Shown piece after piece: positions 20,200 through 25,148 of a DNA stretch of 64,000 nt. Position 1 is the first letter of the stretch. Each line of letters starts with the position of its first letter. This DNA comes from Maritimibacter sp. DP1N21-5. Lineage in GTDB: Bacteria; Pseudomonadota; Alphaproteobacteria; Rhodobacterales; Rhodobacteraceae. The notes under the pieces were generated by a model that saw only the letters and a program-made list of their open reading frames with translations, made no database searches and was not told where the DNA came from. Where the stretch lies: positions 496,001 through 560,000 of the forward strand of contig NZ_JAHUZF010000006.1 in the NCBI RefSeq assembly GCF_019218295.1, in the 5' to 3' direction. The translations under genes and the position numbers were made by a program.

Positions 20200-20238
20200 A
20201 CCTTTCCATCGCAGGCGGCAGGGTCTATCTTGCCCGCC

Positions 20239-22635
20239 ATGAGCAGCTTCGACGATCCCGACTCCTTCTACGCGCCCCAAGGACTGGCCGCCCGCGCCAT
20301 GGCCGGGGCGCGCGCGGCGCAGGCCACGCCCTATCTCGACGGGCTCAACTCGGCGCAGCGCGATGCGGTCGAGGCGCTGGACGGGCCGGTTCTCATGCTT
20401 GCGGGTGCGGGAACGGGGAAGACCAAGGCGCTCACCGCCCGGATCGCGCATCTCTTGACCACCGGGACCGCGCGGCCCAACGAAATTCTCGCCGTGACCT
20501 TCACCAACAAGGCCGCGCGGGAGATGAAGAACCGGGTCGGCGCTCTGCTGGGTCAGCCCGCCGAGGGGATGCCGTGGCTCGGCACCTTCCACGCGATCTG
20601 CGTGAAGCTCCTGCGCCGTCATGCCGAACTCGTCGGTCTCAAGACAAACTTCACCATCCTCGACACCGACGATCAGGTGCGGCTGATGAAGCAGCTCATT
20701 CTCGCCGAGAATATCGATGAGAAACGCTGGCCCGCCCGAATGCTTGCCGGCATCATCGACACTTGGAAGAACCGGGCCTGGACGCCCGAAAACCTGCCTG
20801 CCTCGGAAGCGAACGCCTTCAACGACCGGGGGCCTGAGCTTTATGCCGCCTATCAGGCGCGGCTGAAGACGCTCAATGCCTGCGATTTCGGTGACCTGCT
20901 CCTCCACATGGTCACGATCTTTTGCGAACACGACGACATCCTGCGACAGTATCAGACGTGGTTTCGGTTCATCCTCGTGGACGAATACCAGGACACCAAC
21001 GTCGCGCAGTATCTCTGGCTTCGGCTCCTTGCAGGCGCGCACAAGAACATCTGCGTGGTGGGCGACGACGACCAGTCGATCTATGGCTGGCGCGGCGCCG
21101 AGGTGGGCAACATCCTGCGGTTCGAGAAGGACTTTCCGGGGGCCAAGGTCGTCCGGCTCGAACAGAACTACCGCTCGACGCATCATATCCTCGAGGCCGC
21201 CAACGGCGTGATCCGGGGCAATGCCGACCGGCTGGGCAAGGAGCTGTTCACCGAAGAGGGCGACGGAGAGAAGGTCCGCCTCATCGGACACTGGGACGGC
21301 GAGGAAGAGGCCCGCTGGATCGGGGAAGAGATCGAGGCGATGCAGGTCGGCACGCGGGGAATGGAGCCGAAGTCACTCGATGACATGGCCATCCTCGTGC
21401 GCGCTTCCCACCAGATGCGCGCCTTCGAGGATCGGTTCCTGACCATCGGTCTGCCTTACCGCGTCATCGGTGGCCCGCGTTTTTACGAGCGGATGGAAAT
21501 CCGCGATGCCATGGCCTATTTCCGGCTCGCGGTGTCGCCCGACGACGATCTGGCGTTCGAGCGGATCGTGAACACGCCGCGCCGGGGCTTGGGCGACAAG
21601 GCGATCCAGACGATCCAGCGCATGGCGCGGGCGCACAACGTGCCGCTGGTGGACGGTGCCGCGAAATGCATCGAGCAGGGCGAGATCAAGGGGAAGGGGG
21701 GCAAGGGCCTGACCGACCTTGTCCAAGGTATCTACCGCTGGCACGCCCAGATCCGGGACGAGGCCGATACCCACGTCGAACTGGCCGAGATGATCCTCGA
21801 GGAATCTGGCTACAGCGAGCATTGGCAGAACGACAAAACGCCCGAGGCGCCCGGTCGGCTGGAAAACCTCAAGGAACTGGTTAAGGCGCTGGAGGAATTC
21901 GAGAACCTGCAGGGCTTTCTCGAACATGTCGCGCTTATCATGGACAACGAGAGCGGCGAGGAGGAAGAGAAGGTCACCATCATGACGCTTCACGCCGCCA
22001 AGGGCCTCGAATATCCCGTCGTGTTCCTGCCGGGGTGGGAGGACGGGCTTTTCCCCTCGCAACGCTCGATGGATGAAAGCGGGCTCAAGGGGCTCGAGGA
22101 AGAACGCCGCCTTGCCTATGTCGGCATCACGCGGGCCGAGGAGATCTGCACGATCTCTTTTGCCGCGAACCGCCGGGTCTATGGCCAGTGGCAAAGCCAG
22201 CTTCCCTCGCGGTTCATCGACGAATTGCCCGAGGCGCACGTGGACGTGCTCACGCCGCCCGGTCTTTACGGCGGTGGCTACGGGGCCGCGGGCAGCTTTG
22301 GCGGCGGGATGTCGTCGCTCGAAGAACGCGCGGCGCGGGCAGATGCCTACAATTCGCCCGGCTGGCGCAGGATGCAGAGCCGGCAGCCCGAACGCTCCAT
22401 GGCCAGCCCGAACGAGGCGCGGGGTCTGACGATCAACGCTACGGCGGTGTCGTCCTTCACGCAAGGCGACCGCATCTTTCACCAGAAGTTCGGCTATGGC
22501 TACGTGATGGGCATCGAGGGCGACAAGCTCGACATCGAGTTCGAACATGCCGGGTCGAAGAAGATCGTCGCGAAATTCGTGGTGGCCGCTGAACGCGCGG
22601 GCGGTGACGTCGCGGATGACGATGTGCCGTTCTAG
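20239..22635 (+). CDS. uvrD: ATP-dependent DNA helicase UvrD/PcrA
   Basis: A 798-residue superfamily 1A 3'-5' helicase acting in nucleotide excision and mismatch repair. Motifs in order: Q motif and LNSAQRDAVEA, Walker A LAGAGTGKTKALT, Ia TFTNKAAREMKNR, Walker B VDEYQDTNVAQY, III GDDDQSIYGWRGA, IV LEQNYRST, V VTIMTLHAAKGLEYPVVF, VI LAYVGITRAEE. The C-terminal FGYGYVMGIEGDKLDIEFE is the small RNA-polymerase-contacting domain of the PcrA/UvrD type. A Gly-rich linker (GGGYGAAGSFGGG) precedes it. The ATG at 20239 is used; a TTG nine bases upstream is possible. A LexA box lies upstream, and the gene is convergent with the CcsR array. Confidence 0.95.
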   Translation: MSSFDDPDSFYAPQGLAARAMAGARAAQATPYLDGLNSAQRDAVEALDGPVLMLAGAGTGKTKALTARIAHLLTTGTARPNEILAVTFTNKAAREMKNRVGALLGQPAEGMPWLGTFHAICVKLLRRHAELVGLKTNFTILDTDDQVRLMKQLILAENIDEKRWPARMLAGIIDTWKNRAWTPENLPASEANAFNDRGPELYAAYQARLKTLNACDFGDLLLHMVTIFCEHDDILRQYQTWFRFILVDEYQDTNVAQYLWLRLLAGAHKNICVVGDDDQSIYGWRGAEVGNILRFEKDFPGAKVVRLEQNYRSTHHILEAANGVIRGNADRLGKELFTEEGDGEKVRLIGHWDGEEEARWIGEEIEAMQVGTRGMEPKSLDDMAILVRASHQMRAFEDRFLTIGLPYRVIGGPRFYERMEIRDAMAYFRLAVSPDDDLAFERIVNTPRRGLGDKAIQTIQRMARAHNVPLVDGAAKCIEQGEIKGKGGKGLTDLVQGIYRWHAQIRDEADTHVELAEMILEESGYSEHWQNDKTPEAPGRLENLKELVKALEEFENLQGFLEHVALIMDNESGEEEEKVTIMTLHAAKGLEYPVVFLPGWEDGLFPSQRSMDESGLKGLEEERRLAYVGITRAEEICTISFAANRRVYGQWQSQLPSRFIDELPEAHVDVLTPPGLYGGGYGAAGSFGGGMSSLEERAARADAYNSPGWRRMQSRQPERSMASPNEARGLTINATAVSSFTQGDRIFHQKFGYGYVMGIEGDKLDIEFEHAGSKKIVAKFVVAAERAGGDVADDDVPF

Positions 22636-22721: not shown

Positions 22722-22804
22722 AAAAACGAAAAACGGTGACGCCTGGGAGGAGGTAGGCGCCACCGTTCTTGCAAGCAATCGGTCTCAGGGAGGAGGAAGA
22801 GACC
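22722..22804 (-). ncRNA. CcsR-like sRNA, copy 7 (last), ending in the array terminator
   Basis: Two hairpins on the minus strand expose CCTCCTCCC loops. The first pairs GGTCTC with GAGACC (22781-22786, 22799-22804). The second is a long stem formed by 22732-22744 and 22755-22767 whose outer strand runs into TTTTTCGTTTTT, so this anti-Shine-Dalgarno hairpin doubles as the Rho-independent terminator of the array. Confidence 0.75.
22732..22767. terminator. Terminator of the CcsR array, also facing uvrD
   Basis: A 12-pair stem (AACGGTG and CGCCT against AGGCG and CACCGTT with one internal mismatch) around a 10-base loop containing the CCTCCTCCC complement. Reading minus, the stem is followed by TTTTTCGTTTTT. 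Reading plus, it lies about 100 bases after the uvrD stop with only CTT following, so it should work mainly on the minus strand. Confidence 0.75.
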
Positions 22805-22843
22805 TTTCGCATATGTCCGGGTTTCCCCGGTATGTTCGCCCTT

Positions 22844-22899
22844 GGCCCCAGGGAGGAGGAGGGGCTACGGGCCACGGTCGCCTCGGGAGGAGGTGAGGC
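22844..22899 (-). ncRNA. CcsR-like sRNA, copy 6 (diverged)
   Basis: Hairpins around CCTCCTCCC loops: GCCTC/GAGGC (22880-22899) and GGCCCC/GGGGCT (22844-22866, one G-U pair). The loops are 34 bases apart, shorter than in the other copies, and the linker does not keep the GATGGCCCC pattern, so this pair is less certain than copies 1-5. Confidence 0.6.
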
Positions 22900-22924
22900 T
22901 TCCGATCTCTGGCCTGAGATCGCA

Positions 22925-22991
22925 ACCCTCCAGGGAGGAGGAAGGAGGGTCGCTCTCAGGTCTCGGACGCTTCAGGGAGGAGGAAGAAGCG
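22925..22991 (-). ncRNA. CcsR-like sRNA, copy 5
   Basis: Two CCTCCTCCC-loop hairpins: CGCTTC/GAAGCG (22968-22991) and ACCCTCC/GGAGGGT (22925-22950), loops 42 bases apart. Stem sequences differ from the other copies while the pairing and the loop motif are kept. Confidence 0.7.
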
Positions 22992-23010
22992 CCCGAATTG
23001 TGGGCCCCTC

Positions 23011-23073
23011 GGCGTCAGGGAGGAGGAAGACGCCATCGGGGCCATCGAAACGTCTCAGGGAGGAGGAGAGACG
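23011..23073 (-). ncRNA. CcsR-like sRNA, copy 4
   Basis: Two CCTCCTCCC-loop hairpins: CGTCTC/GAGACG (23051-23073) and GGCGTC/GACGCC (23011-23034), loops 40 bases apart, joined by the recurring CGATGGCCCCGAT linker on the minus strand and followed by AGGGGCCCAC. Confidence 0.8.
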
Positions 23074-23096
23074 CTCCGAAATTGGGGACCCGGTGC

Positions 23097-23158
23097 GCGT
23101 CAGGGAGGAGGAGACGCTGTCCGGGTCATCGGCCCGCCTCAGGGAGGAGGAGAAGCGG
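23097..23158 (-). ncRNA. CcsR-like sRNA, copy 3
   Basis: Two CCTCCTCCC-loop hairpins: CCGCCTC/GAAGCGG with one mismatch (23134-23158) and GCGTC/GACGC (23097-23117), loops 39 bases apart, linker CGATGACCCGGAC. Confidence 0.78.
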
Positions 23159-23177
23159 ACCGAAACTGTGGGCCCCT

Positions 23178-23245
23178 GGCGTCGGGAGGAGGATGACGCC
23201 GTCGGGGCCATCGAAACGCCTCAGGGAGGAGGAAGAGGCGTTTCG
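23178..23245 (-). ncRNA. CcsR-like sRNA, copy 2
   Basis: Two CCTCCTCCC-loop hairpins: a perfect 11-bp stem CGAAACGCCTC/GAGGCGTTTCG (23212-23245) and GGCGTC/GACGCC (23178-23200), loops 40 bases apart, linker GATGGCCCCGAC. Confidence 0.8.
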
Positions 23246-23262
23246 AAATTGGGGGCCCCTAG

Positions 23263-23326
23263 GCGTCAGGGAGGAGGAGACGCTGTCAGGGCCATCGGGA
23301 AACCTCAGGGAGGAGGAGAGGTTCCC
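23263..23326 (-). ncRNA. CcsR-like sRNA, copy 1 (next to ccaF1)
   Basis: The first element after the ccaF1 stop, starting ten bases downstream: hairpin GGGAAACCTC/GAGGTTCCC with one bulge (23297-23326) and GCGTC/GACGC (23263-23283), loops 39 bases apart, linker GATGGCCCTGAC. In R. sphaeroides the CcsR RNAs are cut from the ccaF1 (RSP_6037) transcript, and the same arrangement is seen here. Confidence 0.82.
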
Positions 23327-23335
23327 CGAAAACTG

Positions 23336-23548
23336 TTATTTCCCGTAGGCCGCTTCGCGGGCGATGAACGGGATTTCGGCGCGCGAGATGCCGAGGTCGG
23401 CGAGATCGCGGTTGTCGAGGGCGCGCAGTTCAGCGACGGTGCGGTTGAAAACCTTGCGCTGTGCGCGGGCCTCGGAGATTGCCTTGAACACGGCCGACAC
23501 GCGGTCGGAGAAGGTGCCAGCGGTGCGGATATCAGTTGCGTATGCCAT
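23336..23548 (-). CDS. ccaF1: DUF1127 family small protein, CcaF1-like
   Basis: A 70-residue basic protein with the DUF1127 signature in its second half (FNRTVAELRALDNRDLADLGISRAEIP). It is followed on the same strand, after ten bases, by an array of CCUCCUCCC-loop hairpins. This matches RSP_6037/CcaF1 of R. sphaeroides, an RNA-binding DUF1127 protein co-transcribed with the CcsR sRNAs and involved in their maturation. The link of family and array is seen directly; the biochemical role is inferred by analogy. Its 5' leader holds two GC hairpins (23572-23587 and 23593-23619). DUF1127 proteins are common, so the identity rests on context. Confidence 0.82.
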   Translation of the reverse strand: MAYATDIRTAGTFSDRVSAVFKAISEARAQRKVFNRTVAELRALDNRDLADLGISRAEIPFIAREAAYGK

Positions 23549-24068
23549 GTGCTCGTCTCTTTCTTCAGCTTGGGCCCGTTCGGGCCCGGGATCGCGCCGT
23601 TCCTGGCGCTTACGGCGCGGGGTCGTTCCCCGCTTCGGTTGAGGTGAATTTGGCGGTTATGCTGCACCTGCACAATCCGACCTTTGCTCAACGCCGCCAT
23701 GCAGCAATTGCATAACGCATGCTGACCTAATTAATTGCCATTCTTTTCAGCCGGATAGTCCGTATTTCGCCCCCCGAGAGGCAGAAAATCGACCCGAAAA
23801 AGTTGACCGAAGGTAAGCGAAACCGCGTCATTTAGGTCACAGAACGGGGCGAGAACGGCCAAAATAATTCGGCGAGCGAAAAAAATAGGCCGCAGGTGTT
23901 TGGGCGATTCCGCGCGAAATGGGCAAATGCCCACCTGATGTGAGTCGCCCTGAGACGGATGCGCCAACAGGGGGCGAAACGGCACGGCGCATTGAAGCCC
24001 GGCGGGGGGCATGCCACATAGCGCCACAGGCAGAGGTGGCCTAAGCGCCCCTCATGAAGGAGGCCCCC
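23549..24068. other. Divergent intergenic region between ccaF1 and mrp
   Basis: About 520 bases with no convincing gene. Minus-strand side: two stable GC hairpins in the presumed ccaF1 leader, then an inverted repeat GTTATGC (23656-23662) / GCATAAC (23710-23716). The centre (about 23720-23890) is clearly richer in A and T than its surroundings and probably holds the divergent promoters, but no -35/-10 pair stood out on either strand. The open frames crossing it are extensions of the complement of mrp and carry no recognisable protein features. Confidence 0.5.
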
Positions 24069-25148
24069 ATGGCGATCACCCGTGACCAGATCCACTCTTC
24101 TTTGTCCAGCGTTGCGCTGCCCGACGGTGGCGACCTCGTCTCGCGCGACATGGTGCGTGCGCTGACGGTGGAGGGCGGGACGGTAAGCTTCGTGATCGAG
24201 GCGCCCTCGCCGGACGCGGCCGGCAAGATGGAGCCCCTGCGCCGCGCCGCCGAAGACGCGGTGCGCAGCCTGCCCGGTGTCGACAAGGTGACCGTCATCC
24301 TGACCGCACATGGTCCTTCGGCCAAGAAACCGGCTGGCGATGCGCCCAACCTTCGCGTCGGCGGCCATCCCAAGCCCCAGGCGGGCCCCATGGCGATCCC
24401 GGGCGTCGCGCGCGTCATCGCGGTGGCGTCGGGGAAGGGGGGTGTCGGTAAATCCACCGTGTCCTCGAACCTCGCCGTGGCGCTGGCTGCGGCCGGTCGC
24501 CGCGTCGGGCTGCTCGACGCCGACATCCTCGGCCCGTCGCAGGCGCTCATGATGGGCATCACCGAGAAGCCGACCTCCTCGGACGGCAAGAACCTCGATC
24601 CCGTTTCGGGGCATGGGGTCAAGGTGATGTCGGTCGGCATGATCGTCGATCCGGATCAGGCGGTCGTCTGGCGCGGTCCGATGCTCATGGGCACGCTTCA
24701 GCAATTCGCCTTTCAGGTAAACTGGGGCGATCTCGATGTGCTGATCGTCGATCTGCCGCCGGGCACGGGCGATGTGCAACTCACGCTTGCCCAGAAGGTC
24801 GAGATGACCGGCGCGCTGGTGGTGTCCACGCCTCAGGACGTGGCGCTGCTCGACGCGCACAAGGCCATCGACATGTTCGGCAAAGTCAATGTCCCGATCC
24901 TCGGGCTGATCGAGAACATGTCCTCTTATATATGTCCCCAATGTGGGCACGAGGCGCACCTCTTCGGGCATGGCGGCGTCGCGGAAGAAGCGCGCCGCGT
25001 CGGCGCCCCCCTTCTGGCACAGCTTCCGTTGTCGCTGGATGTGCGCCTTGCCGGTGACGCGGGCGTGCCTGTCGCCCTAACCGAAGGCGCCGTGGGGGAG
25101 GCTTATCGTGCACTCGCGACCGACCTCGTGGCGCGCGGGATCGCTTGA
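24069..25148 (+). CDS. mrp: Mrp/ApbC family P-loop ATPase, iron-sulfur cluster carrier
   Basis: A 359-residue protein. Residues ~1-75 form a DUF59-like domain (ITRDQIHSSLSSVALPDGG, then LPGVDKVTVILTAHG). The ATPase domain starts with VASGKGGVGKSTVSSNLAVALA (deviant Walker A with the signature lysine), then DADILGPSQ and LIVDLPPGTGDVQLTLAQ. ICPQCG is the conserved C-x-x-C that bridges an Fe-S cluster between subunits. Mrp/ApbC carries 4Fe-4S clusters to apoproteins. An upstream in-frame ATG at 24054 is rejected because the Shine-Dalgarno AAGGAGG (24057-24063) lies between it and the ATG at 24069. Confidence 0.93.
   Translation: MAITRDQIHSSLSSVALPDGGDLVSRDMVRALTVEGGTVSFVIEAPSPDAAGKMEPLRRAAEDAVRSLPGVDKVTVILTAHGPSAKKPAGDAPNLRVGGHPKPQAGPMAIPGVARVIAVASGKGGVGKSTVSSNLAVALAAAGRRVGLLDADILGPSQALMMGITEKPTSSDGKNLDPVSGHGVKVMSVGMIVDPDQAVVWRGPMLMGTLQQFAFQVNWGDLDVLIVDLPPGTGDVQLTLAQKVEMTGALVVSTPQDVALLDAHKAIDMFGKVNVPILGLIENMSSYICPQCGHEAHLFGHGGVAEEARRVGAPLLAQLPLSLDVRLAGDAGVPVALTEGAVGEAYRALATDLVARGIA

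Follow-up and report, generated by a model that had tools for sequence, protein, structure and literature searches.

A CcaF1/CcsR-like 'cuckoo' locus with fourteen tagged hairpins, large for its genus, in a Maritimibacter-like genome

Introduction

The stretch of DNA considered in the current analysis (64 kb, referred to here as the window) encodes, behind a gene of the DUF1127 family, a row of hairpins that all carry the same loop. The initial annotation described this row as an expanded array of CcsR or 'cuckoo' RNAs, which raises the question of which known locus it corresponds to, whether its size is unusual, and what a larger number of hairpins would do. In Rhodobacter sphaeroides four CcsR RNAs have been described (PMC10253847), each with two stem loops (PMC3927594). 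They are reported to be co-transcribed with ccaF1, induced by oxidative stress and matured by RNase E and CcaF1 (PMC10253847, PMC8625941, PMC8307010).

The tagged hairpins and their stems

The motif CCTCCTCCC occurs exactly 14 times on the minus strand between positions 22745 and 23316, as originally noted, and is found nowhere else on either strand of the 64 kb window. In dinucleotide shuffles its mean count is 0.98 and its largest 5, and none of 100 shuffles reaches 14. When the window array was scanned for loops departing from the motif by one or two mismatches, none came up besides the exact ones. Defined by motif count and stem pairing, the array (22722..23331, minus strand) comprises 14 CCUCCUCCC loops, is read as seven two-hairpin units and has a U tract at its end. 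The loops follow each other at spacings of 39, 45, 40, 42, 39, 45, 40, 43, 42, 48, 34, 63 and 43, in agreement with the range of 34-63 first given. The alternation of short and long spacings that had been proposed holds in all but name over the first ten hairpins and is only loose afterwards.

Each of the 14 loops lies in a hairpin of its own, as had been claimed, and is closed by a stem of 5-14 contiguous pairs. The pairing summed over the hairpins' own arms is 123, against 66 +/- 7 when the 3' arms are re-dealt among the 14 hairpins, and in 20000 such permutations the observed sum is reached 0 times. The register of the stems was selected for maximal pairing, and since this permutation makes the same choice it is the fairer control. 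Standard pairs fill all 70 of the 70 cells at the five loop-proximal stem positions, and each position is represented by 2-4 pair types, whereas slid versions of the stems give only 26-41 standard cells of 67-70; the covariation within the locus noticed in the initial annotation is therefore real. Over the 74 hairpins of eight arrays (the window array and those of seven congeners) 369 of 370 loop-proximal cells are standard.

Two points were missed in the initial annotation. An extra hairpin without the CCUCCUCCC tag lies between the sixth and seventh pairs (22815..22835, minus strand), and by eye congeners have one at the equivalent place with the stem changed and still paired. Hairpin 14 has a stem of 14 pairs followed by the U tract and, resembling a terminator by eye, is probably one; a simple terminator scan, which admits loops of 3-8 only and is uninformative for loops of more than 8 bases, gave no match at the window locus.

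The DUF1127 gene and its neighbourhood

The gene ahead of the array (23336..23548, minus strand) codes for a small protein of 70 aa with a DUF1127 domain (PF06568, 43.3 bits against a cut-off of 23.3), so that the earlier assignment of this gene is borne out. Its position and length are CcaF1-like, and 22 nt separate its end from the first loop on the same strand. The genome has four PF06568 matches, and the adjacent-loop pattern (gap 20-50) together with the Rfam model ar14 place an array beside this one only. Among fetched loci with at least three loops, a DUF1127 open reading frame is located upstream in 46 of 48 distinct arrays (69 of 71 entries before removal of repeat loci), with a gap of 19-105 nt and a median of 25, the exceptions being L053 and L059. 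Four of the 46 (L023 and L025-L027) were fetched via the DUF1127 protein itself and the other loci via the loop pattern, and the independent association is therefore 42 of 44.

Beyond the DUF1127 gene an Mrp-type NTPase gene is encoded (24054-25148, plus strand), and a UvrD-type helicase gene lies on the other side of the array (20230-22635, plus strand). A neighbour of one or the other type is present in 46 of 49 array loci, and both in 24, counts that are affected by the shortness of the fetched loci, in which one neighbour is often cut off. The locus therefore looks old and syntenic.

The region upstream of the DUF1127 gene is conserved across relatives. Two boxes on the minus strand, ATTGTGCANNTGCAGCA (23660..23676) and the dyad TATGCA-N5-TGCAT (23696..23714), have been recognised by their conservation across array loci; both recur across the family, and the strict form of ATTGTGCANNTGCAGCA is found in 26 of 48 array loci. 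The two boxes could possibly serve as the operator of some regulator. Loose matches in the genome number 12 and 8, of which the surroundings were inspected at L105, L113 and L091/L122 only; apart from one site ahead of another DUF1127 gene, these were not convincing. A copy of the dyad with two mismatches (G000:C6:1445321-1445341, L091 and L122) is situated about 190 bases before a second DUF1127 domain (C6:1445527), whose gene has no array, hinting at shared control. A consensus scan upstream gave no sigma-70 promoter and is uninformative for promoters of other kinds.

Assignment to known RNA families

Three features of the cuckoo/CIN1 locus are present here, namely CCUCCUCCC in adjacent hairpin loops, variable paired stems and a short DUF1127 gene directly upstream on the same strand. 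The locus is of the CcaF1/CcsR-like 'cuckoo' type, its genome being Maritimibacter-like; in kind, the identity first proposed stands. Other traits of such loci are an RpoHI/RpoHII promoter, binding of the RNAs by Hfq and a maturation that depends on RNase E and CcaF1. The cuckoo RNA family and the CIN1 locus were reportedly described by Reinkensmeier and Giegerich in 2015.

A check by covariance model had been suggested in the initial annotation. The CcsR1 model (RF02791) gives a best score of 40.0 bits (E 2.7e-8), a sub-threshold match against the gathering score of 65.3. The ar14 model (RF02344), which has three hairpins with CCUCCUCCC loops as in the window, only borders its cut-off, with 59.1 or 58.6 bits in the window array against a gathering score of 58.8. 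A run of ar14 over the genome, in which 150 of 183 first-look candidates were scored, gave five matches, with 65.4 and 59.2 bits among the scores. These five and the 12 adjacent-loop matches all lie inside the array, and no dispersed array copies were found in the genome. Three of seven related arrays scanned reach the ar14 cut-off (L027, L061 and L063). Because CcsR1 falls below its cut-off and ar14 is borderline, the locus is termed CcaF1/CcsR-like by its features, and not a CcsR1 member by model.

The CcaF1-CcsR1-4 operon of R. sphaeroides (RSP_6037, RSs0680a-d), as described, has the same layout: a DUF1127 gene of about 70 aa, then homologous two-hairpin units with CCUCCUCCC loops, which in the window are predicted units, closed at the 3' end by a Rho-independent terminator, for which the window has a probable counterpart by eye (PMC10253847, PMC3927594). 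The window array differs in having seven pairs instead of four and in its sub-threshold CcsR1 score. The cuckoo loci described in alphaproteobacteria likewise have adjacent hairpins with variable stems, a constant CCUCCUCCC loop and short DUF1127 proteins alongside (PMC4504443, PMC10253847), but the motif is described there as 2-4 hairpins (PMC4504443), whereas 14 stand in one row here. A partial search of the literature gave no report of arrays longer than CcsR1-4, although such reports may exist.

The array as seven pairs

The 14 hairpins had been read as seven two-hairpin RNAs. On the minus strand, pair 1 (hairpins 1-2) would occupy 23253..23333 and is spanned by a sub-threshold RF02791 match of 21.9 bits. 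It is followed by three copies of the pair-1 type, pair 2 (hairpins 3-4, 23168..23247), pair 3 (hairpins 5-6, 23087..23165), both with ends set by eye, and pair 4 (hairpins 7-8, 23001..23083), the last with a sub-threshold RF02791 match of 24.3 bits. Pair 5 (hairpins 9-10, 22912..22994) and pair 6 (hairpins 11-12, 22838..22904), again with ends by eye, are the likely orthologues of pairs 2 and 3 of congeners with 8 hairpins. Pair 7 (hairpins 13-14, 22728..22814), the likely orthologue of the congeners' pair 4, carries the best RF02791 match of 40.0 bits, also sub-threshold. The CcsR1 matches align at full length to pairs 1, 4 and 7; on pairs 2, 3, 5 and 6 the model gave no match at E 0.01.

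The linkers agree with this framing. In the window array a linker between pairs has a weight of unpaired A/U of 4.6-15.8, and a linker inside a pair one of 1.2-3.3. Because the linkers between pairs are longer, the weight was also computed per nucleotide, giving 0.17-0.33 between pairs and 0.04-0.17 within. The mean A/U per nucleotide is higher between pairs in 8 of 8 arrays (the window and seven congeners), with a tie in L020 (0.14 and 0.14) when its long last linker is left out, and values of single linkers between and within pairs overlap in several congeners. The reading as seven pairs is thus supported, but not proven, by linker A/U and by the phase of the CcsR1 matches. Two hairpins are not a universal module, because other genera amplify units of three or four hairpins.

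Copy number in the genus and the family

By the DUF1127 protein, the closest named relatives are Maritimibacter species (L016-L023), at identities from 81% down to 65%. The nearest, Maritimibacter sp. REDSEA-S28_B5 (L016), is a metagenome-assembled genome, and its UvrD is 96.6% identical over 768 residues. The adjacent-loop pattern gives 12, 6, 6, 6, 10, 6, 6 and 6 matches in eight genomes of the genus. Read from the loci themselves, the hairpins number 14 in the window genome, 12 in L016 and 8 each in L017-L022, which together with L016 form the one set of seven genus relatives counted throughout. Eight hairpins in the congeners would make four RNAs of two hairpins each, the number described in R. 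sphaeroides. In L023 the perfect loops number 6; there and in L026 some hairpins were seen by eye to carry degenerate loop tags, and these are possibly decaying copies.

The family sample comprised 394 genomes, close to one for each genus; 296 of them have one or more adjacent-loop matches and 98 have none. Twelve or more matches are found in at least 10 of the 394, the window genome included, and this is a lower bound because the pattern undercounts arrays with wide linkers (L051 has 12 loops and 6 matches); stray matches also enter the counts. The matches number 25 in G180, 17 in G314, 15 each in G021 and G065, 14 in G122, 13+1 in G033, 13 each in G286, G372 and G380, and 12 in the window genome, for which loops read directly number 26, 20, 15 and 17, 16, 14, 14 each, and 14, in the same order. 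Among named species, the array of Loktanella atrilutea has 23 hairpins and that of L. salsilacus 15. The longer arrays (these two, G180, G314, G065 and G122) also consist of a DUF1127 gene followed by tandem tagged hairpins; they differ from the window array in being built from amplified units of 1-4 hairpins, the copies being nearly identical in several cases. The window array hence ranks among the higher values of a trait that varies widely, large for the genus and no record in the family. The word 'expanded' in the initial annotation is apt against the genus, where the counts are 14 here, 12 in the closest relative and 8 in the other six, and describes nothing unusual for a family in which at least ten sampled genomes reach such counts.

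Repeat units and history of the array

The amplified unit differs from genus to genus. Units of one and of three hairpins are amplified in G180 (99% and 97% match), units of two in G380 (97%), of three in G372 (98%), G286 (93%) and G065 (90%), and of four in L. atrilutea (94%). The arrays L043 (G180), L063 (G380), L068 (G372) and L027 (L. atrilutea) have 14-26 tagged hairpins, among them units of 1-4 hairpins that are almost the same (94-99% match), suggesting a recent expansion of each. In the window array Tandem Repeats Finder identifies 84-base units with two loops (79% match) and 166-base units with four (86%); the same program found no array in L016 or L028.

Within the window array, identities between pairs range from 0.58 to 0.87. 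Pairs 5, 6 and 7 correspond to L016 pairs 4, 5 and 6 at identities of 0.88, 1.00 and 0.91, and their counterparts are present in the 8-hairpin arrays. Pairs 1-4 share identities of 0.75-0.87 with each other, 0.73-0.83 with pair 1 of L018 and 0.59-0.70 with pairs 5-7. Towards the first pair of L017, L019 and L021, window pair 1 has an identity of 0.66-0.67 and window pair 3 is closer at 0.75-0.77. The simplest history is probably an amplification of the first pair, to three copies at first and to four later, and the window would then be one probable case of an array growing step by step from four to seven pairs. A tree built from 37 pairs is poorly resolved, places window pairs 1-4 in no strongly supported set and does not settle the order of duplication.

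Targets of the loops

The genome has 10 sites where the exact complement GGGAGGAGG stands 2-12 bases before an ATG, against 2 for a reversed control. Judged by length, the frames after six of these ATGs are possible real genes (402, 331, 73, 158, 501 and 362 aa), and the other four are 69, 54, 64 and 26 aa long. Judging from the letters, we take the GGGAGGAGG-ATG frames to include a thiolase, an acyl-CoA dehydrogenase, an acyl-CoA carboxylase subunit, an acetyltransferase and an ABC ATPase; the ATG of the putative acyl-CoA dehydrogenase frame may be internal. The background consisted of 41 window open reading frames of at least 150 aa, selected by length and not as annotated genes, of which 40 were scored. 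At least five contiguous complementary bases upstream were found in 5 (first ATG) or 7 (best start) of these 40, and hence the start regions that the loops fit are a minority. The claim that every loop complements a ribosome binding site was overstated, given such figures and only ten ATGs in the genome with the perfect 9-mer.

The idea that the start region of the DUF1127 gene evades its own loops was considered and rejected. Five or more contiguous bases are complementary in 3 of 49 DUF1127 starts, against the 5-7 of 40 frames above, and by Mann-Whitney tests DUF1127 starts are not lower in loop complementarity than the long window frames. The 49 starts include one organism twice (L028 and L078), several species of Maritimibacter and Loktanella and a misplaced start (L037); L032 and L053 were dropped, having no loop after the gene, and loci that were repeats had been left out beforehand.

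Proposed mode of action and alternatives

From these comparisons we infer a single transcription unit, in which the DUF1127 (CcaF1-like) gene would be followed by the 14 anti-Shine-Dalgarno hairpins and a terminator hairpin. The precursor would be cut in the A/U-rich unpaired linkers between pairs, leaving about seven two-hairpin RNAs of some 70-85 nt; RNase E is reported to cut mainly A/U-rich regions, and its part in the maturation of CcsR1-4, together with CcaF1, is reported as well (PMC8625941). The DUF1127 protein and RNase E may affect maturation here as published for CcsR1-4. The biology of DUF1127 proteins is debated, some relatives being described as acting via proteins and not RNA (PMC12501420). 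Each RNA would expose two CCUCCUCCC loops, able to pair with purine-rich GGGAGGAGG-like start regions of selected mRNAs and so to lower their translation under stress. Inside the genus, tandem duplication of the first pair would have enlarged the array from four to seven pairs, most likely with the effect that each transcript yields more copies of interchangeable RNA. A higher dose of interchangeable RNAs is favoured over new targets because the loop is constant and the stems change in pairs. Taken as a whole, this account of one unit, two-hairpin stress RNAs, growth by first-pair duplication and higher dose appears to us probable.

The strongest competing explanation regards the array as a neutral RNA minisatellite, the copy number of which drifts by unequal recombination while only some minimum number of hairpins matters. 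The wide range of copy number in the family, from genomes with no adjacent-loop match to 26 hairpins, would be expected of it, as would the degenerate loops seen by eye in L023 and L026 and repeat units that vary by genus, some of them 97-99% alike, so that turnover looks recent. It is set back by the stems, all 14 of which still pair after divergence, and by the scan of the window array, in which no loop with one or two mismatches turned up; surplus copies that drift should have left some. We consider it possible, if doubtful.

The differences in stems and linkers between pairs would also accord with sub-functionalised RNAs, in which copies with different stems hit different targets. Stem substitutions come in pairs, as expected if pairing alone is selected, while the loop is constant, and this makes such a division of targets unlikely. 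The suggestion in the initial annotation that copies differ in their targets finds no support in this pattern, which bears on targets indirectly.

Less likely again, the array could act in cis, as a structured 3' UTR by which the DUF1127 mRNA is shielded or the rate of its decay is set, and not as a source of trans-acting RNAs. Its place directly after the DUF1127 gene in nearly all distinct arrays would suit such a role; a protective hairpin needs no conserved nine-base loop, however, and the FlhR mRNA has been reported as a target of CcsR1-4 (PMC8307010). A repetitive protein encoded on the plus strand is very improbable. In its favour, an open frame of 292 aa (22769-23647) spans the array, 8 of 13 window loop spacings are divisible by three, and L017 has two antisense frames that are likewise stop-free. 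Against it, the spacings not divisible by three, 5 of 13 in the window and between 4 and 8 in each array of the seven congeners (with 8 of the 11 in L016), would let a repeated peptide drift out of frame; in the seven congeners each antisense frame contains 0-3 stops, and no frame stays open throughout.

A bolder reading can be put forward tentatively, with somewhat less confidence than an even balance would give. Cuckoo arrays of the family may be RNA-coding minisatellites in which copy number shifts fast by unequal recombination of whole hairpins. The amount of global anti-Shine-Dalgarno RNA released per stress transcript would then be an evolvable dial, with the window lineage caught in mid-growth and its stems re-diversified by paired changes.

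Significance

Long tandem arrays of one small RNA serve as natural experiments, useful in that species can be compared by repeat number. Should the dose depend on copy number, the series of 8, 12, 14, 23 and 26 hairpins would allow the needed amount of a translation-dampening RNA under stress to be probed, and such loci would also show how arrays retain function while every stem changes. The window adds to this series an enlarged version of a known stress-RNA locus in a marine bacterium, with 14 hairpins that carry the same nine-letter tag.
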